Shown here one piece after another: positions 3,274-33,899 of a stretch of 64,000 bases of DNA (its first letter is position 1; every line of letters begins with the position of its first letter). Both the position numbers and the translations under genes were made by a program. Source of the DNA: a virus. The notes beneath the pieces are model-generated. The model did no database searches, was not told the origin of the DNA, and saw nothing but the letters and a program-made list of their open reading frames with translations. The stretch lies in the IMG/VR virus record IMGVR_UViG_3300044568_004476, positions 1 through 64,000 of that record; one strand, given 5' to 3'.

Positions 3274-3948
3274 GTGGCAGATCAAGACATATCATCATAT
3301 AACTTTGACGGAGGATCGGCTCTTTCCGACGGGGGAGATCAAATAGCTGGTGGATCTGCAGGATACCCATTAAACCCGATGTCGGGAACAACCGGTGGAT
3401 TTGATACTGTCTACACTAATATAGCTATTAATAGGGATTCTTTATCTAGGATAGAAGCTACATTTAGAGAATTTAACGAAAAACCAGAGCTTAGATTTAT
3501 AAAAGAATCATTGGTGGTTACGCAAAAGGCTGATACCCTGGATTATCTTGACGTTGCATATTTTTTCCATCCACTTCAAGATTTTTCAGATTTTCAAAAA
3601 CAAACTTTTACAATAGGACCTTTAAACTCTGTTAACATAGATCCAGGTTCTTTTGAAGGAACTTTAGGTGAAGCATCAATGATAGTAGCTAGAGCATATT
3701 ATCTACCAGAATCCAAAGTAGATGAAAGAATTCTATTTTGGGATTATAAGGGAAACCCTAGAAATATAATGGGTAAATTTATGGTTCTAACTGGAGCCAT
3801 AAAAAAAGATCTTCATTGGAAAGGCTGGGATTTAGATCCATTTTCTACATACGGACACACAGGACCAGCCAATATTGGAAATGGTGGGCTATCTTTTACT
3901 AACCCAACGTCAAAGACGGTTAAATTGACTATAATAACAGCTAACTAA
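3274..3948 (+). CDS. Unknown protein, paralogue of the next gene
   Basis: 224 residues, GTG start (GTGGCAGATCAAG) 7 bases after the previous stop. The first 50 residues are rich in Gly, Ser and Asp. The C-terminal about 150 residues align by eye with the following protein: the region with WDYKGNPRNIMGKFMVLTG here matches WTYLGDTYYMGELMVLSG there, and both end in a short beta-rich segment with a Gly/Asn-rich loop. They look like beta-sandwich structural proteins arising by duplication. Position between membrane proteins and head genes suggests a virion surface or decoration role, but no known family was identified. Confidence 0.6.
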   Translation: MADQDISSYNFDGGSALSDGGDQIAGGSAGYPLNPMSGTTGGFDTVYTNIAINRDSLSRIEATFREFNEKPELRFIKESLVVTQKADTLDYLDVAYFFHPLQDFSDFQKQTFTIGPLNSVNIDPGSFEGTLGEASMIVARAYYLPESKVDERILFWDYKGNPRNIMGKFMVLTGAIKKDLHWKGWDLDPFSTYGHTGPANIGNGGLSFTNPTSKTVKLTIITAN

Positions 3949-3952
3949 TAAA

Positions 3953-4438
3953 ATGGCAACTAAACCAATAATATGCCCATATGACGAAGGAACTGGATTC
4001 AGATTCTACAGAGGCAGCCTTGTATTAGACGAGGGAAATAGCACGAAGCTACCAATTTATCTAGATATGAAGGATCTCTTAGAAGAAACCGTATCTTTTA
4101 GTAAAAGCAGGGTTACCTTAAAAGCAGGAAAATGTTTCCTTCTTCAGCAAACAGATATAGGAGACGATCTTGGATACGTTTCTTTCTTAGGGGTAAAAGC
4201 TATATTTCCATCAACTACAGTAGAGTCAAGGAAATATCTCGAATGGACTTATTTAGGAGATACATATTATATGGGTGAATTAATGGTGCTTTCAGGTAAA
4301 AGAATATCTGCTACAGATTCGATATACGAAGGGTGGCTTTTATCTAAGCCTGGAGTATACTCAAATCTAGGAGGCATAGTTTTCTGTAATACCCATTCGG
4401 ACATAGATATTAAATTAGAAATCTTAGTCTGTAAGTGA
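3953..4438 (+). CDS. Unknown protein, shorter paralogue of the preceding gene
   Basis: 161 residues, starting 4 bases after the preceding stop. It aligns with the C-terminal portion of its neighbour over most of its length, with the shared core around GELMVLSG (about 103-110) and a similar C-terminal strand pattern, but it lacks the Gly/Ser-rich N-terminal extension. The predicted content is mostly beta strand. The two genes are clearly a tandem duplication that diverged. The 85-base gap downstream holds a late-type promoter for the next gene. Function unknown. Confidence 0.6.
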   Translation: MATKPIICPYDEGTGFRFYRGSLVLDEGNSTKLPIYLDMKDLLEETVSFSKSRVTLKAGKCFLLQQTDIGDDLGYVSFLGVKAIFPSTTVESRKYLEWTYLGDTYYMGELMVLSGKRISATDSIYEGWLLSKPGVYSNLGGIVFCNTHSDIDIKLEILVCK

Positions 4439-7305: not shown

Positions 7306-7665
7306 ATGACAAAAGAATATGTTAAAAATAGTGAACTTATTGTCGCTGTTATAGAATCAAAAAAATTAGGTAAGCTAACACCTGAAACTATAAGGATGTT
7401 TAACATGATGATAAATGGTATATCCAAAAAAATGGCTTATAAAGATCCTGAGGATAAAGAAGATTGCATGGCATTTGCTATGGAAGATCTTTGTAAATAT
7501 TGGGACAGATTTAATCCAGAAAAATCTAATAACCCATTTGCTTACTTTACCCAAATAGCTAAGAATGGATTTGCAAAAGGTTGGAAAAAGTTACATCCAC
7601 CAAAGAGTCCTAAGATGATACCATTCAGTTATATAACTGGCGACGATAACTCATATAACGTTTAA
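7306..7665 (+). CDS. 55: gp55-like late sigma factor
   Basis: 119 residues. The block at about 53-95, with a small helical stretch, then WDRFNPEKSNNPFAYFTQIAKNGF, is a sigma region 2 signature; the NPFAYFTQI core and following basic helix match the T4 gp55 late sigma family, which directs host RNA polymerase to short -10-like late promoters. T4 gp55 is longer (about 185 residues), so this is a compact version without a visible region 4. It sits just upstream of head genes and is the natural candidate to read the repeated GATATATA elements in this window. The leader (7243-7305) has no good late element, as expected for an earlier-expressed regulator. Confidence 0.75.
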   Translation: MTKEYVKNSELIVAVIESKKLGKLTPETIRMFNMMINGISKKMAYKDPEDKEDCMAFAMEDLCKYWDRFNPEKSNNPFAYFTQIAKNGFAKGWKKLHPPKSPKMIPFSYITGDDNSYNV

Positions 7666-7676
7666 TCCAAATCTTC

Positions 7677-8162
7677 ATGACTGATATAAAGAAGGTAAAA
7701 CCTAATGGCGATTATAGATCTGGAAAATTTCAACCATCTAAGCCAGAAAAGTATATTGGAGATATCCACAATATAATATACAGATCTTCCTGGGAATCCC
7801 GTTTTTGTGTCTATTGTGATACTAACGATTCTATATTAAAATGGAGTTCTGAACCAATTGCAATTAAGTATTTTAATCCTATGGATAAAAAAGATCATGA
7901 TTATAATGTAGATTTCTATATAAAGGTGCTTAAAGAATCTGGGGAGGAACAGGAATGGATTATTGAAATAAAGCCAGAAAGACAAACTCAAAAACCCATA
8001 TACGAAGGAAGTATGACCCTTGCTAAGTTAAAGTCATATAACCATAGCATGCAGGTATGGATAACCAATCAGGCAAAATTCAAAGCAGCAAAGGAGTGGG
8101 CAGAAAAAAGAGGATTTAGATTCGGCGTGGTTGATGAAAAATTCTTATTCAAAAGTAAATGA
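7677..8162 (+). CDS. 4: gp4-like head completion nuclease
   Basis: 161 residues. It starts with a YRSGKFQPSKPEKYIGD block (about 13-29), followed by IIYRSSWESRF (33-43), a Tyr-Asn-Val-Asp at 77-79, and IIEIKPE (95-101). This is the pattern of the T4 gp4 family: a TnsA-like PD-(D/E)XK fold in which D79 and E97-x-K99 would be catalytic. In T4 the protein completes the filled head before tail joining. The length is close to T4 gp4 (150 residues). It overlaps the next gene by 4 bases (ATGA) and precedes the portal genes, as expected for a head module. Confidence 0.72.
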   Translation: MTDIKKVKPNGDYRSGKFQPSKPEKYIGDIHNIIYRSSWESRFCVYCDTNDSILKWSSEPIAIKYFNPMDKKDHDYNVDFYIKVLKESGEEQEWIIEIKPERQTQKPIYEGSMTLAKLKSYNHSMQVWITNQAKFKAAKEWAEKRGFRFGVVDEKFLFKSK

Positions 8163-8764
8163 CCTATTCAGAATTAGTATTAGAATATAAAAAAAAATTC
8201 AGTAGTGTTACAGATCTTGTAAAAAATACTGACTATATATTTACCAAGAAGTATTTCAAAGATGGTGACTCTGAAAAGAAATTCTCGCCACCATTCATTC
8301 CTGGTGAAATATATTCTTTCCCCTATCCAACTGATAGTAAAATCACGGACAAAAGAAAGTTTATTGATAGGAATCCCATAGTGTTATGCACAGATTCTTA
8401 TAAGACAAAAGAAAATGGTGTTATACTTTCAGGTATAGATCTAATAGTAACCCCACCTGAATATAGAATAAAAATCTTAGACAATATCTATAATAACTTC
8501 ACTAGTATAATAGAAAAAAATCAGAATCATTACACAAAAGGTGGAGCAATAACCCCATTACCTTTAACAAAGGAGAACCTTAAAAAAATGCTTCTTGGTA
8601 CAGGTTATGAGTCTGCAGTTTTTGGATTTAAGACATCATTCATCAGGGATCTTCACATTTTGGACCTTGACGATTGGTATAAATTGCCATATCTTAGAAA
8701 GTCCCAAGTAGATGGCTTAGATATAGCGGGGATATATAATGAATATCAATCGAAATTAATTTAA
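8159..8764 (+). CDS. T4-like head/neck-associated protein, possibly DNA end-protector type
   Basis: 201 residues, 4-base overlap with the gp4-like gene. The segment PGEIYSFPYPTD (48-59), then FIDRNPIVLC and GIDLIVTPPEYRIKIL, follows a pattern (PG-x-Y-x-F-x-Y, D-x-x-PLV, GINLHYLPP-x-x-R) that I associate with a protein common in T4-like phages, sometimes labelled DNA end protector. The family name is recalled from pattern only. Its place between gp4-like and portal genes supports a role in the packaged DNA end or neck. Position next to gp4 resembles T4 gene 53, but the sequence does not look like gp53. Confidence 0.4.
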   Translation: MTYSELVLEYKKKFSSVTDLVKNTDYIFTKKYFKDGDSEKKFSPPFIPGEIYSFPYPTDSKITDKRKFIDRNPIVLCTDSYKTKENGVILSGIDLIVTPPEYRIKILDNIYNNFTSIIEKNQNHYTKGGAITPLPLTKENLKKMLLGTGYESAVFGFKTSFIRDLHILDLDDWYKLPYLRKSQVDGLDIAGIYNEYQSKLI

Positions 8765-8796: not shown

Positions 8797-10407
8797 ATGG
8801 CCGGTTTTGTAGATAATAATGATCCATCCCAATCCCCTGTTATACAGAGGATTAGAGAATCTGTGAGAAAGCTAAGTACTTTTGGTATGAAGTATGATGA
8901 CATGGTCATTAGAAATTCCCAAGCAGTTGGTGTAACCGAAGCTGCGTTCTTAAATAAGAATAAGGCTAATATAGAAGACGAAAGCATGCTTTGGACGTTA
9001 GCAAAGCAAGATATCACTACAAGACAATTCATTTCTTACTTTGACAAGGACTATAAGGGAAAAAGAGATTATCTGAGAAAGTTTTCACTTAACCCAGAAA
9101 TAGAATGGGTCCTTGATACGATATGTGACGAGGCTATATCTTATGATCCTGCTAACTTTTTTGCATACCCAGACTTTATTGATATAACAAACATCAACGA
9201 GAAGCTTAAAGATGACTTATATGAGAATTACAAAAAGCTTTATGATATATGGGGATTCAGTGACGATATAACTGGCTGGCAATATTTCAGACAGTTTTTA
9301 GTTGATGGGTTTTTATGCTTTGAGATAATTTATGATAATGACGGTAAATATATTGTAGGATTTAAAGAATTGGATTCGGTTACTCTTGTTCCGTCTGTGG
9401 AGAAACAAATAGATGGCACCTTTATTAATACTTGGACACAATTTCCGCAGGATCCTAAAAGAAGAAGAGTACTTTACGATCCGCAGATAATTTATATCTC
9501 ATATGCTAAAGGAAATTCAATATCTAGAGTAAGCTACATCGAGAGATTGATCAGACCTTATAATATTCTAAGAATTATTGAATACACTAGAATTATATGG
9601 TCAGTAATGAATTCGTCATTCAGATTAAAAATGACAGTTCCTATTGGTACTAAATCACCTCAAAAAGGTATGCAAACATTAGGAGAACTAATGAGCATCT
9701 ATAAGGAGGACATTCAGCTAAATGATGATAGTGGAGAATTATTAGTAGACGGTAAACCTAAGATACAGTTCTATAAGAACTATCTAATGCCTTCCGGAGT
9801 TAATGGGACACCTACTATTGAACCTGTCAATACTGAAGGTCCTAACCTGAATGACCCTGCTCCTCTATCGTATTTCTTTGATAAATTTGTACAAGAATCT
9901 AAAGTTCCGCCTTCGAGATTTCATACCCCAGATGGAGGTAACACTTCCCCGTATTCTAACGGTGCAGAAGGATTAGACAAAGAGGAAATAAAATTTTCTA
10001 AATTTGTTGAAAGATTAAGATCAATATTCCAGGAGATATTAACTAAGCCACTTTGGATTCAAATGGCTAAGAAATATACTCATTTGGAAAAAGACTTCAT
10101 GTTTAAAAGTCAATTAGGGCTTGACTATTTTTCTGATAATCCATTTAAGATCAATCAAGAAATGGACGTGATAAACAAAAGAAAAGAATCTGTTACTGCT
10201 ATGTCTGGATTAGTTGGGGACGAAGAAAAACCATATTTCTCTACTGCATTTCTTATTGAAACATTCCTTGGTATGTCTAGACAAGATATCATTGCAAACA
10301 AGGAAGCCATGGAGAGAAAAGAGAAGGAAAAGAAAAAGGCGGAGAAGAAAGAAGGCGGAGAGAAGGGTGAAGAAGGGGAAGAAAAAGCACCAGAGGTAAC
10401 ATTATAA
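8797..10407 (+). CDS. 20: Portal protein, gp20-like, copy A
   Basis: 536 residues, close to T4 gp20 (524). Conserved gp20-type blocks include NPEIEWVLDTICDEAI (101-116), GWQYFRQFLVDGFLCFEIIYD, IIYISYAKGN and LRSIFQEILTKPLW. Portal proteins form the twelve-subunit ring at one capsid vertex through which DNA enters and to which the neck attaches. The C-terminus is a low-complexity Glu/Lys/Gly tail ending KAPEVTL. A second homologue of nearly the same length follows after 9 bases and has the same last seven residues; about half of the aligned positions are identical by eye. Phages normally encode a single portal protein. Confidence 0.85.
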   Translation: MAGFVDNNDPSQSPVIQRIRESVRKLSTFGMKYDDMVIRNSQAVGVTEAAFLNKNKANIEDESMLWTLAKQDITTRQFISYFDKDYKGKRDYLRKFSLNPEIEWVLDTICDEAISYDPANFFAYPDFIDITNINEKLKDDLYENYKKLYDIWGFSDDITGWQYFRQFLVDGFLCFEIIYDNDGKYIVGFKELDSVTLVPSVEKQIDGTFINTWTQFPQDPKRRRVLYDPQIIYISYAKGNSISRVSYIERLIRPYNILRIIEYTRIIWSVMNSSFRLKMTVPIGTKSPQKGMQTLGELMSIYKEDIQLNDDSGELLVDGKPKIQFYKNYLMPSGVNGTPTIEPVNTEGPNLNDPAPLSYFFDKFVQESKVPPSRFHTPDGGNTSPYSNGAEGLDKEEIKFSKFVERLRSIFQEILTKPLWIQMAKKYTHLEKDFMFKSQLGLDYFSDNPFKINQEMDVINKRKESVTAMSGLVGDEEKPYFSTAFLIETFLGMSRQDIIANKEAMERKEKEKKKAEKKEGGEKGEEGEEKAPEVTL

Positions 10408-10416
10408 AAATAAGAA

Positions 10417-12030
10417 ATGGCAGGATTTTTAGATTTTTTAAGACCTAACGAGTCAGCTCTAGGCAACATAATAAGGAACCTCGGGAAGGTTTCCAAGTTT
10501 GGTATGCAGTATGACGATATGGTCGTTAGAAACTCTCAGGCTATAGGTAAAACTGAAGGAGCTTTCTCTCAGCAAGGAACTGGGTTTACTCAGGATGATG
10601 CTTTCTATTGGACAGCTTCCTATCAGGATACTAAGGTAAGAAAATATATTGCTTATTTTGATAAGGATTATATAGAAAAAAGAAACTTCTTAAGAAAATT
10701 TTCACTAAATGGAGAAATTGAATTTATACTTGATACTATTACAGACGAATCTATCACATACGACGATAGAAATTATTTTGCTAATCCTTCTTTCGTTAAT
10801 CTAGATATTAAGGAAAAGGTAAAGGATAAGATAGCTGATCATTATAACAGGATTTATAATGTTTTTGGCTTTCAGAATTCCATACTAGGATGGCAGTATT
10901 TTAAACAATTCCTAATCGATGGATTTCTTGCTTTTGAGATTATCTACGATAACAAGGGTAAGGAGATAATAGGGTTCAAAGAATTGGATGCTTCTTCACT
11001 TCAGCCAGCGGTTGAAAAAATTGGGGAAAACGAATATCAGCAATTCTGGATTCAATACCCTAAGAATCCGCAGATGACTAGAAAGCTTACAAATGAGCAG
11101 ATCGTCTATATTTCTTATGCTAAAGGAAACAGCGTATCTAGGGTTAGCTATATCGAGAGATTAGTTAGATCGTATAACATACTTAGAATCATGGAAAATT
11201 CCAGGATAATCTGGAATGTTATGAATGCTTCATATAGACTTAAATTTATCATACCCACGGGAAGTCAATCTCCACAAAAGGCTATGCAAACTTTAGGACA
11301 GCTAATGTCAAACTATAAGGAAGATATTGCAATTAATGACGCATCAGGGGAATTAACAGTTAATGGGAGGCCTAAGGTTCAGTTTTATAAAAACTACCTA
11401 TTTCCTGAACAGAATGGGCAATCCCCTCAAATCGAGTCTCTTAATCCAAGCGGACCTGATTTCAACGTTATGGATAATGTTCTTTATTTCTATAACAAGC
11501 TTAAAATGGATTCAAAGATACCTTATGCTAGGTTTGCTTCTAGAGCTTCTGGACCTGTTAATTATCAGACAGGCATAGATCAATTGGAAAGAGATGAAAT
11601 AAGATTTGAGAAATTCCTAAGAAGATTAAGGTCAATATTCCAGGAGATACTGGTAAAACCTTTATACATTCAGATGTGTTTAGATTTTCCTGAACTATCT
11701 AGAGATAGAAGCTTTAAAACAAATCTTGGCTTAGATTTTCATAGGGAGAGCGAATTCGAAGAGATGGTTCAACTAACCAATTTTTCTAAAAGAAGTGAAT
11801 TCATTAAAGGCCTAGGAGAGCTTAAGGTTAAAGCTGGTGAAGAGGAAAAAGCATATTTTGATAATGATTACCTTATACAAAGATATCTTGGATTAACTCC
11901 AGACCAATTAGCAGCTAACGAATCTTACAAGAAAAAAGAGGCAAAAGAAGCTCCTAAAGCTGAAGGTGCTGAAGGTGAAGCTGCTCCAGCTGAAGGTGAG
12001 GAAGGGAAAGCACCAGAGGTAACTTTATAA
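10417..12030 (+). CDS. 20: Portal protein, gp20-like, copy B
   Basis: 537 residues, a full-length homologue of the upstream portal gene. It keeps the same blocks (GEIEFILDTITDESIT, GWQYFKQFLIDGFLAFEIIYD, IVYISYAKGNSVSRVSYIERL, LRSIFQEILVKPLYIQM) with no frame damage. The copies differ most at the N-terminus, in the region after YKNYL that should correspond to the wing or crown, and in the low-complexity tail before the shared KAPEVTL end. Both copies keep the core, so both are likely functional. They may build a mixed ring or be used at different stages. No terminator follows; a 221-base intergenic region does. Confidence 0.85.
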   Translation: MAGFLDFLRPNESALGNIIRNLGKVSKFGMQYDDMVVRNSQAIGKTEGAFSQQGTGFTQDDAFYWTASYQDTKVRKYIAYFDKDYIEKRNFLRKFSLNGEIEFILDTITDESITYDDRNYFANPSFVNLDIKEKVKDKIADHYNRIYNVFGFQNSILGWQYFKQFLIDGFLAFEIIYDNKGKEIIGFKELDASSLQPAVEKIGENEYQQFWIQYPKNPQMTRKLTNEQIVYISYAKGNSVSRVSYIERLVRSYNILRIMENSRIIWNVMNASYRLKFIIPTGSQSPQKAMQTLGQLMSNYKEDIAINDASGELTVNGRPKVQFYKNYLFPEQNGQSPQIESLNPSGPDFNVMDNVLYFYNKLKMDSKIPYARFASRASGPVNYQTGIDQLERDEIRFEKFLRRLRSIFQEILVKPLYIQMCLDFPELSRDRSFKTNLGLDFHRESEFEEMVQLTNFSKRSEFIKGLGELKVKAGEEEKAYFDNDYLIQRYLGLTPDQLAANESYKKKEAKEAPKAEGAEGEAAPAEGEEGKAPEVTL

Positions 12031-12251: not shown

Positions 12252-13598
12252 ATGAAATTTGACGAAACGGTAAACAACATTAAGATTCTAAAATTACTAG
12301 AATCACTAACAGGCGATGGCTCACAAAAAGCAAAACAGTTATTAATTAGGGAGTCTATAAATCCCAAGATGGAATATATCCTGGATACGTGCTTCAATCC
12401 TTTTGTTACCACTAAGCTTCATAAGTTAAATTTTCTAGCCCAGAGTAAAGAGCATAATCCTAATTTATGGGAGGAGTTTAAAGATTTGGTTGAGGATTTA
12501 AAGAAAGCACCCGCTGCAAACGATTCGCTAAGATCTAGAGCGGAAACATTATTATCTTCTAAATTATCAGAGGTTGAAAGCGAAGACGAAGAACTCCGCA
12601 AGACTCTTATGAAGATATTAACCAAGAGAATGAACATAGGGATTGGAGCAAAGCTAATTAATAAGGCACTTTCTAGAGAACTAATTCCGGATCCTTCCTT
12701 AATGCTAGCTACTGATGATCACTCAACAATCGATAAATGGGACAAAATTTATTGTGAGGAAAAATATGATGGAGTACGTGTTATCGCAGTATATAAAAAT
12801 GGCGAGATAACATATTTTACCAGAGCATTCAATGAGCTTAATGCCTCTTGCTTTCCTAAGATAACTTTCGATTTAAAACTTTGTATGATAAACTCAGGCT
12901 TATCGGGTAATTGGTTTTTCGATGGCGAATTAACGGACTTAAATAGAAAGTCAGTTAGTGGTAAGGTTACACAAATACTAAAGGGAACAGCCAGTGTTAA
13001 TATAGAGAGCGGATTCCTATTTAATGTTTTTGATTTCGACGAACTTGTAACCCTAGATAAAGGATCGGGTGTTTTAGAGTACATTGATAGAAGACACACT
13101 TTAGAAAAAATTACTAGTGGATTATCGGATGACTCTCCAGTTAAGCTGGCTCAGATGTGGGAGCTTTCTGATCCTGGTGAAGTACCTGCAATTTATAAAA
13201 AGATCGTAGATCTTGGCGGTGAGGGTGTCATCTGTAAAGACAACGGTGCTTATGAATGCAAAAGATCCAAATCTTGGGTCAAGTTCAAAGAGGTTAATGA
13301 ATGTGACCTTGAAATTACTGGATGGTATCCAGGAGAAGGTAAAAGGGAAGGTTACATTGGAGGATTTATTATGACTGATGCTTCAAAGACACTTAATGTT
13401 AAGGTTGGATCTGGATTCACTGATCTTGATTTACAATCTTTAAGTAAAGATCCAGATTCACACATTGGAAAAATCGCAGCAGTTTTATATAACGTCACTA
13501 TTACAGATAAGCACGAGAATAGATCTCTTTTCTTACCACGTTTTGTAGACATTAGACATGATAAAGATTCTGCAGATGATCTTTCTTCGAAATTTTAA
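12252..13598 (+). CDS. 30: ATP-dependent DNA ligase, gp30-like
   Basis: 448 residues (T4 gp30 is 487). Motif I is EEKYDGVRVI with the lysine that becomes adenylated at about 171. Motif III is FDGEL (223-227), motif IV lies in GGEGVICKD, and motif V is KSWVKFK, followed by an OB-fold domain with GWYPGEGKREGYIGG. The N-terminal about 150 residues are the helical DNA-binding domain. It seals nicks during replication and repair. It is the first gene of a DNA metabolism block and has its own host-type promoter, consistent with early expression. Confidence 0.92.
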   Translation: MKFDETVNNIKILKLLESLTGDGSQKAKQLLIRESINPKMEYILDTCFNPFVTTKLHKLNFLAQSKEHNPNLWEEFKDLVEDLKKAPAANDSLRSRAETLLSSKLSEVESEDEELRKTLMKILTKRMNIGIGAKLINKALSRELIPDPSLMLATDDHSTIDKWDKIYCEEKYDGVRVIAVYKNGEITYFTRAFNELNASCFPKITFDLKLCMINSGLSGNWFFDGELTDLNRKSVSGKVTQILKGTASVNIESGFLFNVFDFDELVTLDKGSGVLEYIDRRHTLEKITSGLSDDSPVKLAQMWELSDPGEVPAIYKKIVDLGGEGVICKDNGAYECKRSKSWVKFKEVNECDLEITGWYPGEGKREGYIGGFIMTDASKTLNVKVGSGFTDLDLQSLSKDPDSHIGKIAAVLYNVTITDKHENRSLFLPRFVDIRHDKDSADDLSSKF

Positions 13599-15105: not shown

Positions 15106-16246
15106 TATACTTATAGACGGTAACTACATATTCCATAAAACATTTGGAGTATTTGCAGGATATGGATCTAATATAGATCCAGGAAAAGTTCTGAAAAGCA
15201 AATCAGATCAATCTATGTTTATTAGAAAAATTGCTACTGATTTATGCTCATCACTGAAGATGCTACCTATAGGGGGAAGATTAGTTTTTGCATCAGATAG
15301 TAGAAGTTGGAGAAAGGACGTAGAAATCGAAGACGGCGGATATAAATCGGGAAGGGTAAAGGATGAAAATGTAGACTGGTCAATTTTCTTTGATCTCATG
15401 CACTCATTCGGAACTCATCTAGAAAAAATGGGATTTGTTTTTTCCAAGGTAGAGGGAGCAGAAGGAGACGATCTTCTTTTATACTGGTCAGAAAAATTCA
15501 ATGATATAGGAGAAAGCTGTATTATAATAAGCGGCGATAAGGATCTACATCAGCTTGCTAGAATGAAAGGCCCAGACATATGGACAGCTACTTGGAATAG
15601 TAATTCAAAAAAGAATGTTCTCTCAGTACCTAAAGGATGGAAAGAGAATTGGCTAAATGAAACTAAAAGCGAGGTCAGCATATTTAATATGGGCTCTACC
15701 ATTTCACCAGAGAAAGAAAGATTAAAAGATTTCTTGAAGAAAGTTGATATAGAAGAGATAGACAGCTTTCCCTTCATATTTCATAAGATATTAATAGGAG
15801 ACAAGGGCGATTCTGTACCTAGCGTATGGGAATTCGAAACCGCAGGAAAGATCTCTAGGTTTACACCAAAGAGTGCAGAGAAAATTTACGATCTTCTAAT
15901 AGAATCAGAATGGAAAAATTTATCGATAAAATCACTAGTTGGTGACGATGATTTTTTAAATTGGGTATCCCCATTAATTCTAAAAATATGCAAAGGAGTT
16001 GATAGCACAGAAAATAGAATAAAGGTAAAGAATAATTTCTTAAGAAATATCAAACTTATGTGGTTAGATAACACGGTAATACCTGAGAATGTTTCTTTCC
16101 TATGTAAAACAGAAACTACAAGAGGGATCAAGCTAGAAAAGAAATCAGTAACACTGGACAGAATAAAAATACTAGACGGAACCGAATGGATAGTTACCCC
16201 GGCTCAACCTAAGGGATTTGATCCTTTTGAAAATTTCTTAAAATAA
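15098..16246 (+). CDS. rnh: 5' nuclease / RNase H (FEN family, T4 Rnh-like)
   Basis: 382 residues. Acidic residues of the 5'-3' exonuclease/flap nuclease family are seen in order: ILIDGNYIFH (Asp7), FASDSRSWRK (Asp67), EGAEGDDLL (119-127, with Glu122, Asp124, Asp125) and IISGDKDLHQL (Asp147, Asp149), then a helix-hairpin-helix region around DKGDSVPSV. In T4 this enzyme removes RNA primers ahead of ligation. It is longer than T4 Rnh (305) because of an insertion of about 60 residues before the HhH region. The neighbours are ligase, clamp loader and kinase, so it belongs to the replication block. Confidence 0.85.
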   Translation: MINILIDGNYIFHKTFGVFAGYGSNIDPGKVLKSKSDQSMFIRKIATDLCSSLKMLPIGGRLVFASDSRSWRKDVEIEDGGYKSGRVKDENVDWSIFFDLMHSFGTHLEKMGFVFSKVEGAEGDDLLLYWSEKFNDIGESCIIISGDKDLHQLARMKGPDIWTATWNSNSKKNVLSVPKGWKENWLNETKSEVSIFNMGSTISPEKERLKDFLKKVDIEEIDSFPFIFHKILIGDKGDSVPSVWEFETAGKISRFTPKSAEKIYDLLIESEWKNLSIKSLVGDDDFLNWVSPLILKICKGVDSTENRIKVKNNFLRNIKLMWLDNTVIPENVSFLCKTETTRGIKLEKKSVTLDRIKILDGTEWIVTPAQPKGFDPFENFLK

Positions 16247-17783: not shown

Positions 17784-18683
17784 ATGATATTAGGCCAAAA
17801 TCCACTAAAATTATCTTATATAGGTCCTCATTCCGAATCAGTGAATCTAAGCCCACAGATAAATTCATACGAGGAATTTCTTTGTGTAATCAGAGACAAC
17901 ATAAAATTAAATCTTGAGATCGATATAAAAATCACCTGCATAGACGTGTGTGATTTTAAATTTTCCTCAAATTTCTTCAAGGAAGTAATAGAGGAGGAAT
18001 CCGGTGTATCCCATATAATAGACGAAATAAATTCTGCAATCACTAAAAATGATTTACGAATATTTCTATACATAAACAGAGAGTATTTTTTAGGTACCCA
18101 ATTAGATAACATTAAGAGCTCTACAATATCGTTACTATCCAGGTTATCTAGCATTCTGGATTTAATAGGTGTTAATTACCCATCTATAATGGTTAGAGTT
18201 GGATCGGCTTATGGAAACAGAAGAAATACCATGGATCTCTTTTGTGAGAGATTGTTGGGAATGGATAATAGCGTCGTTTCTAAACTTTGTGTCGTTAATG
18301 ACGACAAACCCAGTCTTTTTTCAGTTACCGATCTTCTATCTGGCATTTACTACAGATCTAATATTCCAATATGTTTTAGATTACTCCCACATCAGTTTAA
18401 TGATGGTGGGCTTAGCATAAGGGAAGCCCTTTTTCTTTCCTGTTCAACCTGGAAGTCTGGGCATAAACCTGTATTCATACACTCAGAATCACAAGAATGT
18501 GATGATTACGGAATACCGTCTACACCAAAGCAAACAGAATACCTTAAAAGAAGGATACCTACATTCGGATTGGATATAGACGTAATCATAGAATCCCCTG
18601 CCAGAGAGGATGCCTGCTTAAAATACAGAATGGATCATAAGTCACTTCCCCCTATAGTGATAAATAAAAATTCTAAGAAATAA
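17784..18683 (+). CDS. UV damage endonuclease-like (UVDE) TIM-barrel protein, possibly degenerate
   Basis: 299 residues. The C-terminal two thirds follow the UVDE layout: a VRVGSAYGNRRNTM strand, LCVVNDDKPSLFSVTDLL where UVDE has ENDD and a following helix, IPICFRLLPHQFN at the usual FD-x-x-HH site, KPVFIHSES, and DVIIESPAREDACL near the end. UVDE nicks DNA 5' of UV photoproducts. Several metal ligands look changed: Val replaces the Glu of ENDD, the Asp of the FD motif is missing, and no N-terminal HP motif is seen. It may therefore be a diverged or inactive relative. It lies in the repair/replication block. Confidence 0.5.
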   Translation: MILGQNPLKLSYIGPHSESVNLSPQINSYEEFLCVIRDNIKLNLEIDIKITCIDVCDFKFSSNFFKEVIEEESGVSHIIDEINSAITKNDLRIFLYINREYFLGTQLDNIKSSTISLLSRLSSILDLIGVNYPSIMVRVGSAYGNRRNTMDLFCERLLGMDNSVVSKLCVVNDDKPSLFSVTDLLSGIYYRSNIPICFRLLPHQFNDGGLSIREALFLSCSTWKSGHKPVFIHSESQECDDYGIPSTPKQTEYLKRRIPTFGLDIDVIIESPAREDACLKYRMDHKSLPPIVINKNSKK

Positions 18684-23021: not shown

Positions 23022-24986
23022 ATGCCACAACTACAATCAATAAACGAAAACATGGTATTCATCCTTGAAAGACAGAATTCCGTTCTAGAAGCTAAAAAGT
23101 CTGATACAGATGATTATGTTCTAGAAGGTATTGCTGCTGTTTTTGGTAAAGAAAACAACAACAATAGAATTTATGAAGAGAGTGAATATCTACCTCACCT
23201 AGATTATCTAAAAGATAAGATAGCTCAGAATAGATTAGTTGGTGAATTAGATCATCCCGAGAAATTCGACGTATCACTTAAGAACATCTCTCACATGATC
23301 ACAGATCTTAATTATGATAAAGGTAGGAGGGATCTTAAAATAAAAGTTAAGCTTCTTGATACCCCAGCGGGTAGAATAGCTAAGAACCTAGTAGATGCTG
23401 GAGTTCCTTTATCTATCTCTTCAAGAGCGGCGGGATCTGTCGGTAACGATAAAAAGGTGGCAATCAAAAAAATCTTTACTTATGATTTAGTAGCAGACCC
23501 TGGATTTAAAGATGCTCAACTTGAGAGAGTTTATGAAAGTGAAGGCTTTTCATCCCAACAATTTCATGATATAAAAAATAATAGCATAATAAATACATTA
23601 GAATGCTTAAATGAATCTTTAGGTATCGAAAAAGAATCTTCATTGAAGATATATAAAGTTGAAAATAACGAAGAATTTAATAAAATCGTGAATAAATCAG
23701 ATAATAAAAATAAATCAGTCCTTATGGAAAACCATGAATTTGTTACTGCGGAGGAGCTTAATCAGTATTCAGTCTTTTTGAAAAAAGAAATGGATTCAAT
23801 GAGAGTCGCTATCGCAGAGGCTAAAACCCAAAAAACATCGCTAACCGAATCTGAAGATTTAAGTAAGGCTAATGAGGCTCTTGAAGAAAGAGTTGCTAAG
23901 CTTGAAAAATATGCAGAGTATTTAGCAGAGAACTTAGAGAATTCTATTAAGTATGGTGAGTATCTTGCAGAAAACTTAGATAGCACTATCAACTACAGTA
24001 AATACTTAGCTGAAAATCTAGATAAAAACATTTCTTATGCTAAATACTTAGCTGAGAACGTTGACAAATCTATTTCTTATTCAGAGTATGTAGCTGAGAG
24101 TGTGGATAAGAATATCGAGTATTCTAAATACCTAGCAGAAAAATTGGATCAAAATATTCAATACTCTGAGTACCTAGCAGAAAATGTAGATAAAGGTATT
24201 GCTTATTCAGAATACTTAGGTGAAAACTTAGATAAAGGTATTGCTTACACTGAGTACGTTGCAGAAAAATTAAACAACGGAATTGAATACACTGAGTACA
24301 TTGCAGAAAACCTAAACAAAAATATCGAATATTCTGATTACTTAGCAGAGAATGTTAATAAAGGATTAGACTATTCAGAATACCTTGCAGAGAAATTAAA
24401 CAAAGGTATTGCTTACAGTGAGTATATTGCAGAATCAATTGCTAACAAATTGCCTTCTGAAAATACCACATCATTAGTAGAAAATGTAAATCTATCTGCA
24501 GAAGCAGGTCTTAATGAATCTGGCTTTGCTGGAAACTACGAGAACTTAACTTCACAGATTGATTCATTAATAGAATCGGTTAAAACACAAAAAACCGCTT
24601 CAAATATCAACGAAGCTGCTAAAGCAGTAACAACACCAGCCGAAACACAAAAGGCTAACGAAACACCTCTTAATGAGTCAGACGACATCGCTAAAACAGG
24701 TCTTAAGTTTATTGACGAAATGCCAGCAGAATATGCTCAGGTATGGGAATCTTTATCAGAAGGACATCAGCAATCAATTGTTGCTCAGTCAAACTTCTAT
24801 AATTTAGATACACCTTACCAGATCAAAAATTTCTGGTCAACACGTCAGCTTGGAGCTAAACTAGTTGGAGTACAAAAACTTGACGAGAGTGAAAATGTAG
24901 CCGAGACCGCAAAACCACAAGCGTATTCTTCAGATTATATGAATTATATCGCTACTGCACTTGAGCAAAAATTTCCAAAAAGATAA
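23022..24986 (+). CDS. 21: Prohead protease fused to a scaffold-like repeat domain (gp21-gp22 type)
   Basis: 654 residues. Residues 11-175 are a gp21-type prohead protease: GELDHPE with catalytic His78, SISSRAAG with Ser133/134, and VADPGF. After a linker the protein is helical; residues 299-478 are thirteen tandem 14-residue units of the type EYLAENLDKGIAYS, which should form a long coiled coil. The C-terminal 170 residues contain several (L/I)NE|(S/A) sites (about 197-199, 497-499, 529-531, 550-552), the form expected for self-degradation by the protease. T4 makes protease and scaffold as separate proteins; here they are one frame. An internal ATG at 23724 could give the scaffold alone. The capsid gene follows after 24 bases. 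Confidence 0.85.
   Translation: MPQLQSINENMVFILERQNSVLEAKKSDTDDYVLEGIAAVFGKENNNNRIYEESEYLPHLDYLKDKIAQNRLVGELDHPEKFDVSLKNISHMITDLNYDKGRRDLKIKVKLLDTPAGRIAKNLVDAGVPLSISSRAAGSVGNDKKVAIKKIFTYDLVADPGFKDAQLERVYESEGFSSQQFHDIKNNSIINTLECLNESLGIEKESSLKIYKVENNEEFNKIVNKSDNKNKSVLMENHEFVTAEELNQYSVFLKKEMDSMRVAIAEAKTQKTSLTESEDLSKANEALEERVAKLEKYAEYLAENLENSIKYGEYLAENLDSTINYSKYLAENLDKNISYAKYLAENVDKSISYSEYVAESVDKNIEYSKYLAEKLDQNIQYSEYLAENVDKGIAYSEYLGENLDKGIAYTEYVAEKLNNGIEYTEYIAENLNKNIEYSDYLAENVNKGLDYSEYLAEKLNKGIAYSEYIAESIANKLPSENTTSLVENVNLSAEAGLNESGFAGNYENLTSQIDSLIESVKTQKTASNINEAAKAVTTPAETQKANETPLNESDDIAKTGLKFIDEMPAEYAQVWESLSEGHQQSIVAQSNFYNLDTPYQIKNFWSTRQLGAKLVGVQKLDESENVAETAKPQAYSSDYMNYIATALEQKFPKR
23916..24437 (+). 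repeat. Tandem 42-base (14-residue) coding repeat, about 13 units
   Basis: Each unit encodes [EK]Y[LVI]AE[NK][LV][DN]-x-x-I-x-Y-[ST]. Fourteen residues equal four helical turns, so Tyr and Leu fall on a constant stripe of a coiled coil. The DNA units have diverged in codon use while keeping the protein, showing selection on protein sequence. Confidence 0.92.
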
Positions 24987-25010: not shown

Positions 25011-26729
25011 ATGAAATTGATAAACGAACAAGAAATCTATGACACATGGTCGCCTCTTATTGAGAGCAAGGCTGGTATCACAGATGAAAACAAAAAAGGA
25101 TGGTTGACTAAATATTGTCATTACCATTCATTAAACGAATCTGCTGGTGCATACAATTCACTAGGCGTAGTAAACGGTATGGGTACTGTTGCTCCTCCAG
25201 CATTCCCAGGTGCTTCATATCCCGGTGGTGCTTATTCATCTGGCGCTAACGCTGGTTTTTATAACAACACTTGGCAAGGTTCAGGCGATAAATTCCCTTC
25301 ATTACTTCCATTAGCTATTCAAGTAGCTGCGAAGACTGTAGGTTTTGATATCGTTCCTGTTATCCCTATGTCAGGTCCAACTGGTATCTTGTCTTACTTA
25401 GACTACGTATACGCAGGTGGTAAGGTAGGTGCTGCTGCAGCTTCTTCAGCTGCTGATCAGTTAGCTTCTGCTCCTTCAATGATTAAATTCCCAGTTTACC
25501 AAACTGCTTCAGGTACTCCTGGCGCTACTGGTGCTACTGCTGGAACTTTTACAGTAGGTGCTACTGCTTCTGTAAGCAACACTTTACTTTTAACTTTCGT
25601 AGGTCTATCAAGAATTGATGGTTTCCCTATCTTCCAAATCACTGCTTTAGCATCAGGTTCTAACGTTGCTTCTTACTTCAACGGTACTCCTGCACAAGTA
25701 GTTACTGGAGCTGGTGGATCAGGATTTTACACTCAAAACTCATCTGGAACTGCACAATTAGTTAAAGCTTTAGAAGATCACATCCAAGGTTACTCTGGTG
25801 CTGGTTTCAACAACGATCAAGCTTTTCAAGGTCCTTACGTTGATGGTACTAAAACTTACAACCCAATGTTAAGAGGTGTTGCTGAGTCTACTTACTACAA
25901 CTCAATGGGTCTTTCGACTTTCACTAAGTTCGTAGAAGCTGAAACTTTCCAAGTTGCTGCTTCAGTTACAACTGAGCAAATTCAGGATCTTAACAAACAA
26001 TTCGGTATCGATGTTATTTCAATGATCGAAAACGCATTGGTTAATGAGGTTTCTCAAGCAATTAACAAACACATCCTTTCAAGAGCATTTGCTTTAGGCT
26101 GGTCTAACCACGTACAATTCTTAAGCGTAGAAAACCAAAACCTTAACTTAAACTTAGTTATTAGTGGTGGTGTTGGAACTACTGCTGCTTACGTTAAGAA
26201 AGACGACACTACTGCTTCTATGGCAATCCCTGCAGGTCCTGCATCAGGAGGTTATGAGAACTTATCTACTTTACAAAGAAGATTATTCTCTAGAATCCTT
26301 GCAGCTGCTAACGTTGTAGCTAACAGAGGTAGAAGAGGTCCTGCTAACTTCATCGTTACAAACGCTGCAGTTGCAAGTGCACTTCAAGATATCTCTCAGT
26401 TCACTTTCGCTCCATTCTCTAATACTTTAACTCAAAACAACGGTACTTTATACCCTGTAGGTTCACTTGCTGGTATGACTGTATATGTTGATCAAAACAT
26501 GAGCTACGGTGATACAAGAGTTTGTATCGGTAGAAAAGGTGGTGATGACGAACCGGGTATAAAATTCATGCCTTATATGATGGCGGAGTCTATCCAAACT
26601 ATCAGTGAGGGTACTATGTCACCTAAAATAGCAGTTAAAAGTAGGTATGCACTTGTCGAAGCCGGCTTCCTACCTGAGACAATGTATCTAACATTTTATG
26701 TAAACGTACCTGCTGGTGGTTTAGCATAA
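25011..26729 (+). CDS. 23: Major capsid protein, gp23-like
   Basis: 572 residues (T4 gp23: 521). The N-terminus EQEIYDTWSPLIES (6-19) parallels the LLNKWKPLLE segment of T4 gp23, and a prohead-protease site LNE|SAGAYN at 41-44 matches the position type of the T4 cleavage after Glu65. Further gp23-like features are the region around IVPVIPMSGPTGILSYLDYV, EMxTEQIQDL-like VTTEQIQDLNKQFGIDV, RRLFSRILAAANVVANRGRRG, and the C-terminus GIKFMPYMMAESI. It forms the capsid hexamers. Codons are strongly biased (many GCT, GGT, TAC, AAC), consistent with very high expression. No separate gp24-like vertex gene was seen. Confidence 0.93.
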   Translation: MKLINEQEIYDTWSPLIESKAGITDENKKGWLTKYCHYHSLNESAGAYNSLGVVNGMGTVAPPAFPGASYPGGAYSSGANAGFYNNTWQGSGDKFPSLLPLAIQVAAKTVGFDIVPVIPMSGPTGILSYLDYVYAGGKVGAAAASSAADQLASAPSMIKFPVYQTASGTPGATGATAGTFTVGATASVSNTLLLTFVGLSRIDGFPIFQITALASGSNVASYFNGTPAQVVTGAGGSGFYTQNSSGTAQLVKALEDHIQGYSGAGFNNDQAFQGPYVDGTKTYNPMLRGVAESTYYNSMGLSTFTKFVEAETFQVAASVTTEQIQDLNKQFGIDVISMIENALVNEVSQAINKHILSRAFALGWSNHVQFLSVENQNLNLNLVISGGVGTTAAYVKKDDTTASMAIPAGPASGGYENLSTLQRRLFSRILAAANVVANRGRRGPANFIVTNAAVASALQDISQFTFAPFSNTLTQNNGTLYPVGSLAGMTVYVDQNMSYGDTRVCIGRKGGDDEPGIKFMPYMMAESIQTISEGTMSPKIAVKSRYALVEAGFLPETMYLTFYVNVPAGGLA

Positions 26730-28384: not shown

Positions 28385-29533
28385 ATGAAGAATTTACCAT
28401 CTTTTAATGATTTTAAAAAATACGAGTCTCTGATAGAAACTGTAGACCGTGAACTTAGTGAGGAGTTTGCTTCTTTAGAATCAGCGAATCCAAATCACAC
28501 GATAAACGAAGGAATCTTCGGCGACTATCTTAAGAATTCACTTTCTAAATTTTTCTTAGGTTCTTTATCTAGAGTAGGCATGATTGATAAGGCTAGAAAA
28601 CTTCTAGTAGACTTAGAAATCGATATTATAGAAAAAAGAGATGCCTTCGAAGAAACGATAGAAAAATTAGATTCTGAGATTGATGGATTAAGCTCTATAA
28701 ATGACAAAGAAAAAATAAATGCTGTTATAAAAGACAGAGACAGTAAAATAAAGGAGCTCGAATCATTTCTTAAATCCCATGCTCTTAAGATAAAGAAAGC
28801 AAAGGACTACATAAACAAGGTTATTGAAGGTAATCCTAGAAGAAGAGAATATTTTGAAGCAGCAAGAGCAGATGATGAAATTGCATTAGCTGAACTTGAA
28901 TATAAATTAGCTAAGGATAGAGCTGATGACTCGGACATCAAGAAATTTGAAGAGAAGATTAAAGAGAAGAAGAAAGAGGCAGAAGAAAAAGCTCAAGATC
29001 TAAAAGATCAAATGGATAAAAAATCTAAATCTGAAAAAGCCCCAGAGTCTGATAATTCTGATGATCTTTCATTAGATCCAGAAAAAGAAAAGAAAAAGGT
29101 AGCTAGAAGAAAGGGCAAGGATATCATCGAGAGAAAAAAAGAACTCGAAAAAGATATTGCTGATCTAAGATCAGACATCGAAAGAAAGCTAATAACTTTA
29201 GAAAAAAGAATAAAAGCTAACCCTAATAAAGTTAGCAAATCATATGTAGAAAAAGTTAAGGTTGAATTGCTTGAACTTAGCTCAGTCTTAGATTCTAAGA
29301 AAAACCTATTAGTATTATATAGGAATCTAGGTAAAACCGAATCTGATATAGATAAAAAATTAAGCAAAGAACAAGAATTCACCAAGCTAACCAACATGAT
29401 AAATCAGGAAATAGTTGATGGTGAAGATGCAAACTCTGGAACTAAAAAAATAATTTCTGATGTGTTTGTTACCTCTTCAGGTAACATTGACGTTAGTAAA
29501 TTAAGATCTGCAAAAGATAAACTAAACAACTAA
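28385..29533 (+). CDS. Coiled-coil internal head protein with capsid-targeting peptide
   Basis: 382 residues. The N-terminus MKNLPSFNDFKKYESLIE resembles T4 capsid-targeting peptides, and a prohead-protease site INE|GIFGDYL lies at 40-43. After it comes a hydrophobic amphipathic stretch (LKNSLSKFFLGSLSRVG), then long Lys/Glu-rich coiled coils (about 75-350) interrupted by an acidic linker containing KAPESDNSDD. It is probably packed in the prohead core and cleaved on maturation. It is first in an operon of four similar proteins and is followed 2 bases later by a shorter relative. No enzymatic motif is seen. Confidence 0.65.
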   Translation: MKNLPSFNDFKKYESLIETVDRELSEEFASLESANPNHTINEGIFGDYLKNSLSKFFLGSLSRVGMIDKARKLLVDLEIDIIEKRDAFEETIEKLDSEIDGLSSINDKEKINAVIKDRDSKIKELESFLKSHALKIKKAKDYINKVIEGNPRRREYFEAARADDEIALAELEYKLAKDRADDSDIKKFEEKIKEKKKEAEEKAQDLKDQMDKKSKSEKAPESDNSDDLSLDPEKEKKKVARRKGKDIIERKKELEKDIADLRSDIERKLITLEKRIKANPNKVSKSYVEKVKVELLELSSVLDSKKNLLVLYRNLGKTESDIDKKLSKEQEFTKLTNMINQEIVDGEDANSGTKKIISDVFVTSSGNIDVSKLRSAKDKLNN

Positions 29534-29535
29534 GT

Positions 29536-30471
29536 ATGACTTTAAAATTTAACGAATGGAGCAGCTTAAACGAAGCTGGTATATTTGACAAGATAAAAAA
29601 CTGGTTAAGCAGCACTTTCGGCGGAAGTATAGATTCGTTAGATAAATTAGCTAATGAGTATAGATCTGCAGAGATTGAATATGTTGAGAAGTGGGAAGAT
29701 ATTAATGTTGAGATTGATAAGTTAGATCTAGAAAGATCTCAAACTAAGAGCGATCCCGCAGAGATAAAAAGAATTGATCGTTTAATTCAAAGAAATAATG
29801 AGCTAATGGAAGCTCAGTCTAGATCACACGAGAAAAGAACCGAAAGTATATTTACTAAGGTTAGAGATGTCATAAGCGAGAATAAAAAAGTTAGAATATA
29901 TTGGGAAAAACTTAAAACAAAAGTTGATGCCGATATAGCTGAGGAGATGTATAGGAAAGCTAAAAACCTAGCAGATTCTTCTCTTTCCGGATCATTGTAC
30001 GCTAAATATAAAGCAGCAGTATTAAAAGCTAAACAGAAAGATACCGACTTCAGAAATAGATACGGTAACTTGATGACCAAGGATATTGAATCAGGCGAAA
30101 GATTTAAAGATAAATCTAGATCATCTAGATTTACTAGCGATTCTGATAAGTCTGAAAAATCAGGAAACGAAAGCGATGCCTCATTTGAATTCCTAGCTAA
30201 ATTACCTTTGATTGAATTTACAAATGCTATAAAGGGATACATTCCAGCCCAAGCAAAGAAACTTGTTTCATTTCTTTTAAAGGAAAGAAACGACAGATAC
30301 GTTGCTATGGATATGGAAAGAGATATCTTAAATAAGGAAGTCGAGAATTCATCTAGTCCTGATGAAGCAAGACAATTTGCTTCTAAAAGAATAAAGGAGA
30401 TTAGAGAGAAATATATGGATGAAATAAGAGACCTAAGATCTAAAATAACAATTGCTAGAAAGTATGCTTAA
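29536..30471 (+). CDS. Coiled-coil internal head protein with capsid-targeting peptide
   Basis: 311 residues. MTLKFNEWSSLNE|AGIFDKIKNW carries a targeting-type N-terminus with the cleavage motif LNE at 11-13, followed by a GIF element and an amphipathic helix, as in the upstream protein. The remainder is coiled coil with charged linkers, ending in a helical hairpin. It overlaps the next gene by 8 bases (ATGCTTAA). The architecture suggests a core protein packed next to the DNA and processed by the prohead protease. Sequence similarity to the upstream protein is confined to architecture and the cleavage region. Confidence 0.65.
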   Translation: MTLKFNEWSSLNEAGIFDKIKNWLSSTFGGSIDSLDKLANEYRSAEIEYVEKWEDINVEIDKLDLERSQTKSDPAEIKRIDRLIQRNNELMEAQSRSHEKRTESIFTKVRDVISENKKVRIYWEKLKTKVDADIAEEMYRKAKNLADSSLSGSLYAKYKAAVLKAKQKDTDFRNRYGNLMTKDIESGERFKDKSRSSRFTSDSDKSEKSGNESDASFEFLAKLPLIEFTNAIKGYIPAQAKKLVSFLLKERNDRYVAMDMERDILNKEVENSSSPDEARQFASKRIKEIREKYMDEIRDLRSKITIARKYA

Positions 30472-33334: not shown

Positions 33335-33895
33335 ATGATATACGTATTTGAAGGTCCAAGAAATTCTGGTAAAACATTTTTATCTGAGCATATCTCAGAA
33401 TATTTTCATATTCCAAGATTTCAGTTTAAGTTTGCTAATTTCTTTAGTGATCTAAATCTAAAAAGTGAGGATAGCAAAGAAGCCCATGCATTTTCATTAG
33501 GTAAAGAGTTTATGCTTATGCAGTTAGCAAAGGACATACCACAGGGATCATTCATACACGACAGAGGGATATTAACTGTCTTAGTGTGGGGATTGCTCGA
33601 GGGTAGAATAACTGAGGAAGAAGCTAGAAATCAAATAGAAATATTAAAGAAATATTCTCTTCTCCACGAGATCACTATCATTTATATAAATGGAGAAAAT
33701 CCAGACAAGTCAGATAGAAGTAAAGATCAGTGGGATCATATAGATGGCGAAACTAGAGAAAGAGACACTTATGAGAAAGTAATAATAATGTTTCAAGAAG
33801 CTGGACTACATAAGATATGGGCATTTACAAATAAATTCGACGACCAATCAGTGAGCAATATAGACTCAATGTTTGAAGATATACTTTTTAATTAA
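33335..33895 (+). CDS. P-loop nucleotide kinase (thymidylate kinase-like)
   Basis: 186 residues from ATG 33335; a TTG 45 bases upstream lies inside the promoter and is rejected. The P-loop is FEGPRNSGKTFLSEH (5-19). A HDRG motif near 78-81 is like the DRY/DRS motif of dNMP kinases, and an Arg/Asp-rich lid follows near SDRSKDQWDHIDGETRERD. The thymidylate kinase-like branch is the best fit, but the lid and base-binding residues differ, so the substrate is uncertain. It is followed after 4 bases by asparagine synthetase; the two share one host-type promoter. Confidence 0.68.
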   Translation: MIYVFEGPRNSGKTFLSEHISEYFHIPRFQFKFANFFSDLNLKSEDSKEAHAFSLGKEFMLMQLAKDIPQGSFIHDRGILTVLVWGLLEGRITEEEARNQIEILKKYSLLHEITIIYINGENPDKSDRSKDQWDHIDGETRERDTYEKVIIMFQEAGLHKIWAFTNKFDDQSVSNIDSMFEDILFN

Positions 33896-33899
33896 AAAC

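Follow-up and report, generated by a model that had tools for sequence, protein, structure and literature searches.

A tandem pair of portal genes in a T4-like head operon

The window, i.e., the whole 64,000-nucleotide stretch analyzed here, belongs to a 71-kb virus fragment (IMG/VR record IMGVR_UViG_3300044568_004476) that holds exactly two Portal_T4 genes. These genes, hereafter A and B, lie side by side on the plus strand and are surrounded by the following features.

7306..7665, plus strand: late sigma factor, gp55-like (PHROG 234, E 7e-15), conserved upstream of the portal pair
7677..8162, plus strand: head closure/completion protein, gp4-like, with a TnsA-like nuclease fold (PHROG 218, E 1e-47)
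8159..8764, plus strand: DNA end protector, gp2-like (PHROG 429, E 1e-5)
8797..10407, plus strand: portal paralogue A, 536 aa, T4 gp20-type (open reading frame; Portal_T4 E 8e-58; PHROG 213; fold match to T4 gp20)
10408..10416, plus strand: spacer of 9 nt from the A stop to the B start (-1 to 22 nt in relatives)
10417..12030, plus strand: portal paralogue B, 537 aa, T4 gp20-type (open reading frame; Portal_T4 E 6e-68; PHROG 213; fold match to T4 gp20)
12252..13598, plus strand: DNA ligase, the next gene 3' of B (DNA_ligase_A_M, E 5.5e-18)
23022..24986, plus strand: prohead protease, gp21-like (PHROG 207, E 2e-37)
25011..26729, plus strand: major capsid protein, gp23-like (Gp23, E 4.5e-40), a single full-length copy in the records of relatives

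The two proteins are 51.1% identical over 540 columns of a pairwise alignment and both end in KAPEVTL. A first inspection of the sequence had described two intact, full-length portal paralogues in tandem, about half identical and with a common C-terminus, and this description is borne out, with exact reading-frame positions and end-to-end matches to the family profile. Against Portal_T4 (PF07230; cut-off 22.9 bits), A scores 196.6 bits over profile positions 7-432 of 433 and B scores 229.9 bits over positions 6-433 of 433, A being consistently the lower of the two, and both proteins match the PHROG 213 portal protein. The AlphaFold2 cores are of moderate confidence (pTM 0.57 for A and 0.60 for B), with low confidence at the N-terminus of both models and in the clip and tunnel loops of A. 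Their top PDB match is T4 gp20 (E 1e-19 for A and 4e-22 for B, TM ~0.5), and at this level of similarity the wing, stem, clip, and crown of the gp20 fold are found in both.

The gene order is T4-like (sigma factor, gp4-like, gp2-like, A, B, DNA ligase, clamp loader, guanylate kinase, 5'-3' exonuclease), and the gp21-like protease and gp23 capsid genes lie further along the window, so that A and B have the head-gene context expected for a T4-type portal. We considered the conserved adjacency of A and B as proof of their coupling and dropped it; because the neighboring genes are conserved as well, the signal is non-specific and the gene order is not counted as evidence.

The pair is fixed in a group of huge phages

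Two portal searches of IMG/VR yielded 109 distinct contigs. A is followed by B in all 93 other contigs in which the region is complete, and none of these 93 carries a single copy; the remaining 16 are cut by a contig end, 12 with one copy partial and four ending before the second copy. In whole-record searches, ten other records, including five of 319-434 kb, each contained exactly two Portal_T4 genes. The tandem pair is far beyond chance, since it recurs in 93 other contigs, and paired portal genes are widespread in a group of huge phages. The usual pattern of one T4-type portal gene per genome does not hold in the record of the window or in the ten related records, and a single gene per genome is usual for this family, not definitional. 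An assembly artefact or a recent duplication is ruled out by the old split between A and B (see below) and by the occurrence of the pair in about 100 contigs from many samples.

Outside the clade the portal is single in the records checked, e.g., in LR756500 (462 kb), in an IMG/VR record of 429 kb that shares its portal with LR756500 (100% identity), in a 260-kb sister record, and in others. In a tblastn search of GenBank phages, A matched 1459 records and B matched 2077, and there were only two more matching places than records, corresponding to the two 735-kb entries. One full portal is present in LR756501 (735 kb), together with a separate 101-aa open reading frame at 15166-15351 that matches the C-terminal part of the portal family.

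In a tree of 77 portals, the A clade (support 99/98) and the B clade (100/97) are sisters, and the joint A+B clade (99/92) shuts out all single-copy portals, including those of the near relatives L212-L214. A tree rooted on the portals of Tenacibaculum, Sphingomonas, and Chryseobacterium phages agrees with this topology, and the A and B subtrees match in their main branches and largely in their overall branching. The single-portal sister loci resemble the state before duplication: in L213, a single portal comes after the sigma factor and gp4-like genes and is followed, after 98 nt, by the clamp loader, which also lies 3' of the single portal in L212 and L236. The sister clades, the matching branches, and these loci together show that a T4 gp20-type portal gene was duplicated once, long ago, before the clade radiated. 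Both products have been kept since then as full-length, strongly constrained, adjacent genes; in clade contigs with the region complete, we observe no loss of either copy. The two comparisons that the sequence-only reading had called for, a search for the pair in relatives and a portal tree to date the duplication, recover an old pair that is retained in all 93 complete contigs.

Both copies are under strong and equal constraint

Strong purifying selection acts on both genes, with a median dN/dS of 0.016 for A and 0.021 for B over the 73 pairs with measurable synonymous distance. The two evolve equally fast: across 47 lineages, pairwise identity averages 0.731 in A and 0.729 in B, with a correlation of r 0.94. 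At 45 positions that are nearly invariant in single-copy portals, the majority residue is changed at two in A and at one in B. One of the two changes in A is Lys395, at the end of the tunnel loop, where B and all 26 single-copy portals sampled have Arg. In every domain defined from T4 gp20, the within-copy constraint is similar between A and B (e.g., clip, 0.41 vs. 0.46 bits; wing, 0.63 vs. 0.73 bits), and therefore neither copy appears to have dropped its contacts with the motor and neck or with the capsid.

A single copy in virions with the other under relaxed selection, or single-gene relatives combined with loss of core residues in one copy here, had been named beforehand as signs against two working portals. 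At the sequence level, relaxed selection is seen in neither copy; single-gene relatives do exist, but core loss is likewise absent from both copies. With dN/dS near 0.02 and the invariant portal residues retained, a pseudogenized copy is rejected. We also considered B as the ancestral form and A as its degraded derivative. This idea draws on the strictly conserved sites, where the single-copy relatives are B-like at eight, A-like at two, and unclear at ten, but all divergent sites taken together disagree, the relatives being A-like at 85 and B-like at 61, and A is therefore not the degraded copy. Taken as a whole, the pattern suggests that both are specialized subunits and that neither is a relic beside a working portal.

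Relative to constraint, the copies differ most in putative DNA-facing loops

Identity between A and B is lowest at the N-terminus (37-50%), over residues 330-390 of A (~30%), and in the crown and C-terminal region (23-33%). T4 gp20 contacts DNA via three loops, the inner clip, channel, and tunnel loops (PMC4493910), which we placed in A and B by sequence alignment to T4 gp20 at low identity, as follows.

9787..9810, plus strand: A inner clip loop, residues 331-338, consensus MPsGVNGT (T4 mapping)
9829..9858, plus strand: A channel loop, residues 345-354 (T4 mapping)
9901..9981, plus strand: A tunnel loop, residues 369-395, ending at Lys395 (T4 mapping)
11401..11424, plus strand: B inner clip loop, residues 329-336, consensus FPEkdGqS (T4 mapping)
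11443..11472, plus strand: B channel loop, residues 343-352 (T4 mapping)
11515..11592, plus strand: B tunnel loop, residues 367-392 (T4 mapping)

The Jensen-Shannon divergence (JSD) between A and B averages 0.64 in these T4-mapped loops vs. 0.31 in the rest of the folded core (p 1.4e-5), and within each copy the loops are no more variable than the rest of the core. The tunnel loop ends in a DKEE consensus in A and in ERDE in B. Strict paralogue-specific positions are enriched in the stem, clip, and tunnel loop, which hold 14 of the 20 (p 0.014). The N-terminal region, which in T4 gp20 anchors the ring to the capsid (PMC7136217), is also strongly different (JSD 0.46), and the crown differs too.

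These data refine an initial proposal that the N-terminus and the region around the YKNYL phrase differ most and represent the contacts that changed. The N-terminus is indeed divergent, but YKNYL itself is conserved in both copies and the low stretch begins just after it; the crown had been missed. That stretch corresponds to the T4-mapped DNA-facing loops and not mainly to contacts within the ring.

Matching C-terminal tips

The C-terminal tips of the two proteins covary across genomes.

10384..10404, plus strand: A C-terminal tip KAPEVTL (covaries with the B tip across genomes)
12007..12027, plus strand: B C-terminal tip KAPEVTL (covaries with the A tip across genomes)

Among the 23 lineages in which both proteins end in T-L or T-I, partners from the same genome agree at 4.9 of the last six residues vs. 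3.5 after shuffling, and none of 5000 shuffles does as well. The match also holds among 18 distinct tag pairs; against near relatives it is weaker (17 better, four worse), and it is partly phylogenetic. In 20 of the 47 lineages A ends without the T-L tip. When the cores of A-B lineages are compared, there is no within-genome excess of A-B identity, and therefore no sign of recent gene conversion. Tip codons match at 58% vs. 54% for core codons, barely above the core, and gene conversion was accordingly set aside as the source of the shared ends, with saturation of the synonymous sites able to mask older events. A protease cleavage site is inconsistent with the tips that have no Glu. As the simplest reading, which is suggestive only, both tips may meet the same partner in the head.

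Composition of the portal ring

Given these sequence patterns, the reading that we favor, and to which we assign an even chance, is that A and B are both working portal subunits of the virion and come together at the portal vertex in a single mixed dodecamer. Such a ring would present two kinds of inner clip, channel, and tunnel loop to the DNA, while the common scaffold would be kept for ring closure, motor and neck docking, and capsid seating. With the genes so closely spaced, the two subunits would be produced at the same time, and their matching C-terminal tips would face a shared partner within the head. Hetero-complexes are a frequent outcome when a homomer is duplicated (PMC1895999, PMC7480870). 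In T4, the gp20 12-mer and the gp13 12-mer meet a gp14 hexamer (PMC12270204), and a 6-fold portal is therefore geometrically sensible, as six A and six B subunits would fit the neck. Speculatively, the ring could alternate A and B and thereby acquire true 6-fold symmetry. That the whole clade has an obligate two-subunit portal of this kind, with A and B alternating six times and two kinds of loop, is a possibility that we hold only tentatively and consider clearly less probable than a mixed ring as such.

The main rival, in our view rather unlikely, invokes two homomeric rings with different jobs, both essential and never mixed: one might nucleate heads or guide packaging and then be replaced or discarded, the other serving as the virion portal, or the two might serve as alternative portals, each at its own time. 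Two separate essential homo-rings account equally well for the retention, the constraint, and the matching trees, and also for the specialized DNA-facing loops; about half of the paralogous pairs in E. coli keep their homomeric interaction (PMC7480870), and the strong divergence of the N-terminal region, capsid-anchoring in T4, also speaks for this rival. However, A and B show about the same constraint on clip and wing, neither copy looks freed from motor/neck or capsid contact, and with 51% identity, a conserved stem and clip, and side-by-side translation, mixing of the subunits is likely. We know of no tailed phage in which the portal is exchanged during assembly, which also counts against two homo-rings. 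An initiation-only copy, raised in the sequence-only reading, is weakened because the clip, which binds the motor and neck in T4, is equally constrained in A and B.

A different role for one paralogue, as an accessory ring or scaffold (e.g., a second stacked vertex ring or part of the internal core), is improbable. The lower Portal_T4 score of A and its Lys395 would suit this idea, but A retains nearly all invariant single-copy residues and, like B, matches the fold of T4 gp20, and the excess of A-like sites in the single-copy relatives points the other way. Still less probable are two head forms, in which A and B would each initiate their own kind of capsid, e.g., of another size, from the same capsid protein. 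The presence of two intact portals and the effect of the portal on head size control in T4 whisker mutants (PMC7136217) speak for this idea, which was also among the initial proposals; it is weakened because the major capsid protein and the terminase are single full-length genes in each record, and strict retention across records of 319-434 kb argues against an optional second particle. No second full-length gp23 was found in the records, which removes the variant based on a duplicated capsid gene. More generally, the portal pair comes without a duplicated head gene. A copy-number search for the neck gene with PHROG 211 yielded matches that were weak and partial. A redundant or selfish duplicate, kept by chance or dosage without a distinct function, has in its favor that tandem duplication is common in phages; given the old split, the lack of any loss or pseudogene, the dN/dS near 0.02, and the paralogue-specific conserved positions, it is largely refuted already and its probability is close to nil. 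The mixed dodecamer thus stays the favored of the initially proposed readings, and the view of A and B as full, working paralogues is well supported.

Relation to known systems

The new element is the fixed portal pair; both proteins belong to the known T4-type portal family. A and B resemble T4 gp20 (PF07230; PDB 3JA7, 6UZC, 9MKB) in a match over ~415 residues, in predicted fold, and in their head-completion operon, but T4 has one gene and a homododecamer, whereas here two genes, unlike in the DNA-facing loops, N-terminus, and crown, are present. The single-copy portals of sister huge phages (L212, L213, L214, L237, and LR756500) share the operon of sigma factor, gp4-like, gp2-like, and portal genes and are ~40-54% identical to A or B, but they occur exactly once per record and branch outside A+B. 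Duplication of a T4-type head protein is known from gp23 and gp24, which became the capsomer and vertex subunits of one shell; these are shell paralogues, however, and we found no such case for a portal ring. The mismatches of the 12-fold portal with the 5-fold capsid and the 6-fold tail are long-standing puzzles. The portal of T4 and other tailed phages is described as a ring of twelve identical subunits (PMC4493910). As in paralogous hetero-rings derived from a duplicated homomer (PMC1895999, PMC7480870), the tandem paralogues are both kept and likely act in one complex. Literature searches, limited to open-access papers, turned up neither a phage described as having two portal genes nor a heteromeric portal, and such an absence is not proof.

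If correct, the mixed ring would be the first known case of a heteromeric portal and, with A and B alternating, would match the neck and tail in their 6-fold symmetry. The clade with the split portal would serve as a natural experiment that asks where in the ring identity is required and whether 12-fold identity matters for packaging, with the L212-L214-type single-gene sister lineage permitting a before/after comparison. These huge phages can also be recognized by the portal pair, as a two-gene marker of their group.

Additional features of the window and related records

Several further observations concern the head genes. The 42-bp repeats at 23999-24434, inside the gp21-like protease reading frame, encode a long repeated YxxYLAENLxKxI tail, and the product is probably a scaffold-protease fusion. 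Downstream of the capsid gene, two adjacent coiled-coil-rich reading frames (28385-29533 and 29536-30471) are weakly similar (29%, E 2e-7), have a common NEGIF/NEAGIF start, and are candidate scaffold or core proteins. An asparagine synthase gene (33873-35306) and a UvdE-like UV endonuclease gene (17784-18683) also lie among the head genes. Four large paired-portal records carry a short (~300 aa) gp23-like reading frame far from the capsid gene (G001, 73823-74635; G002, 87367-88128; G003, 242467-242988; G004, 129580-130146), with a similar one of 315 aa in LR756500; these could be vertex or decoration proteins. Elsewhere in the window, the adjacent reading frames 3274-3948 and 3953-4438 encode distantly related paralogues (27% identical over 164 aa, E 3e-7) that have no match in Pfam or PHROG and are possibly small surface or fibre-associated proteins, and 69-bp tandem repeats at 46532-46888, within the reading frame 44909-47242, encode a repeated VPGxDLGxPxRVYP motif.
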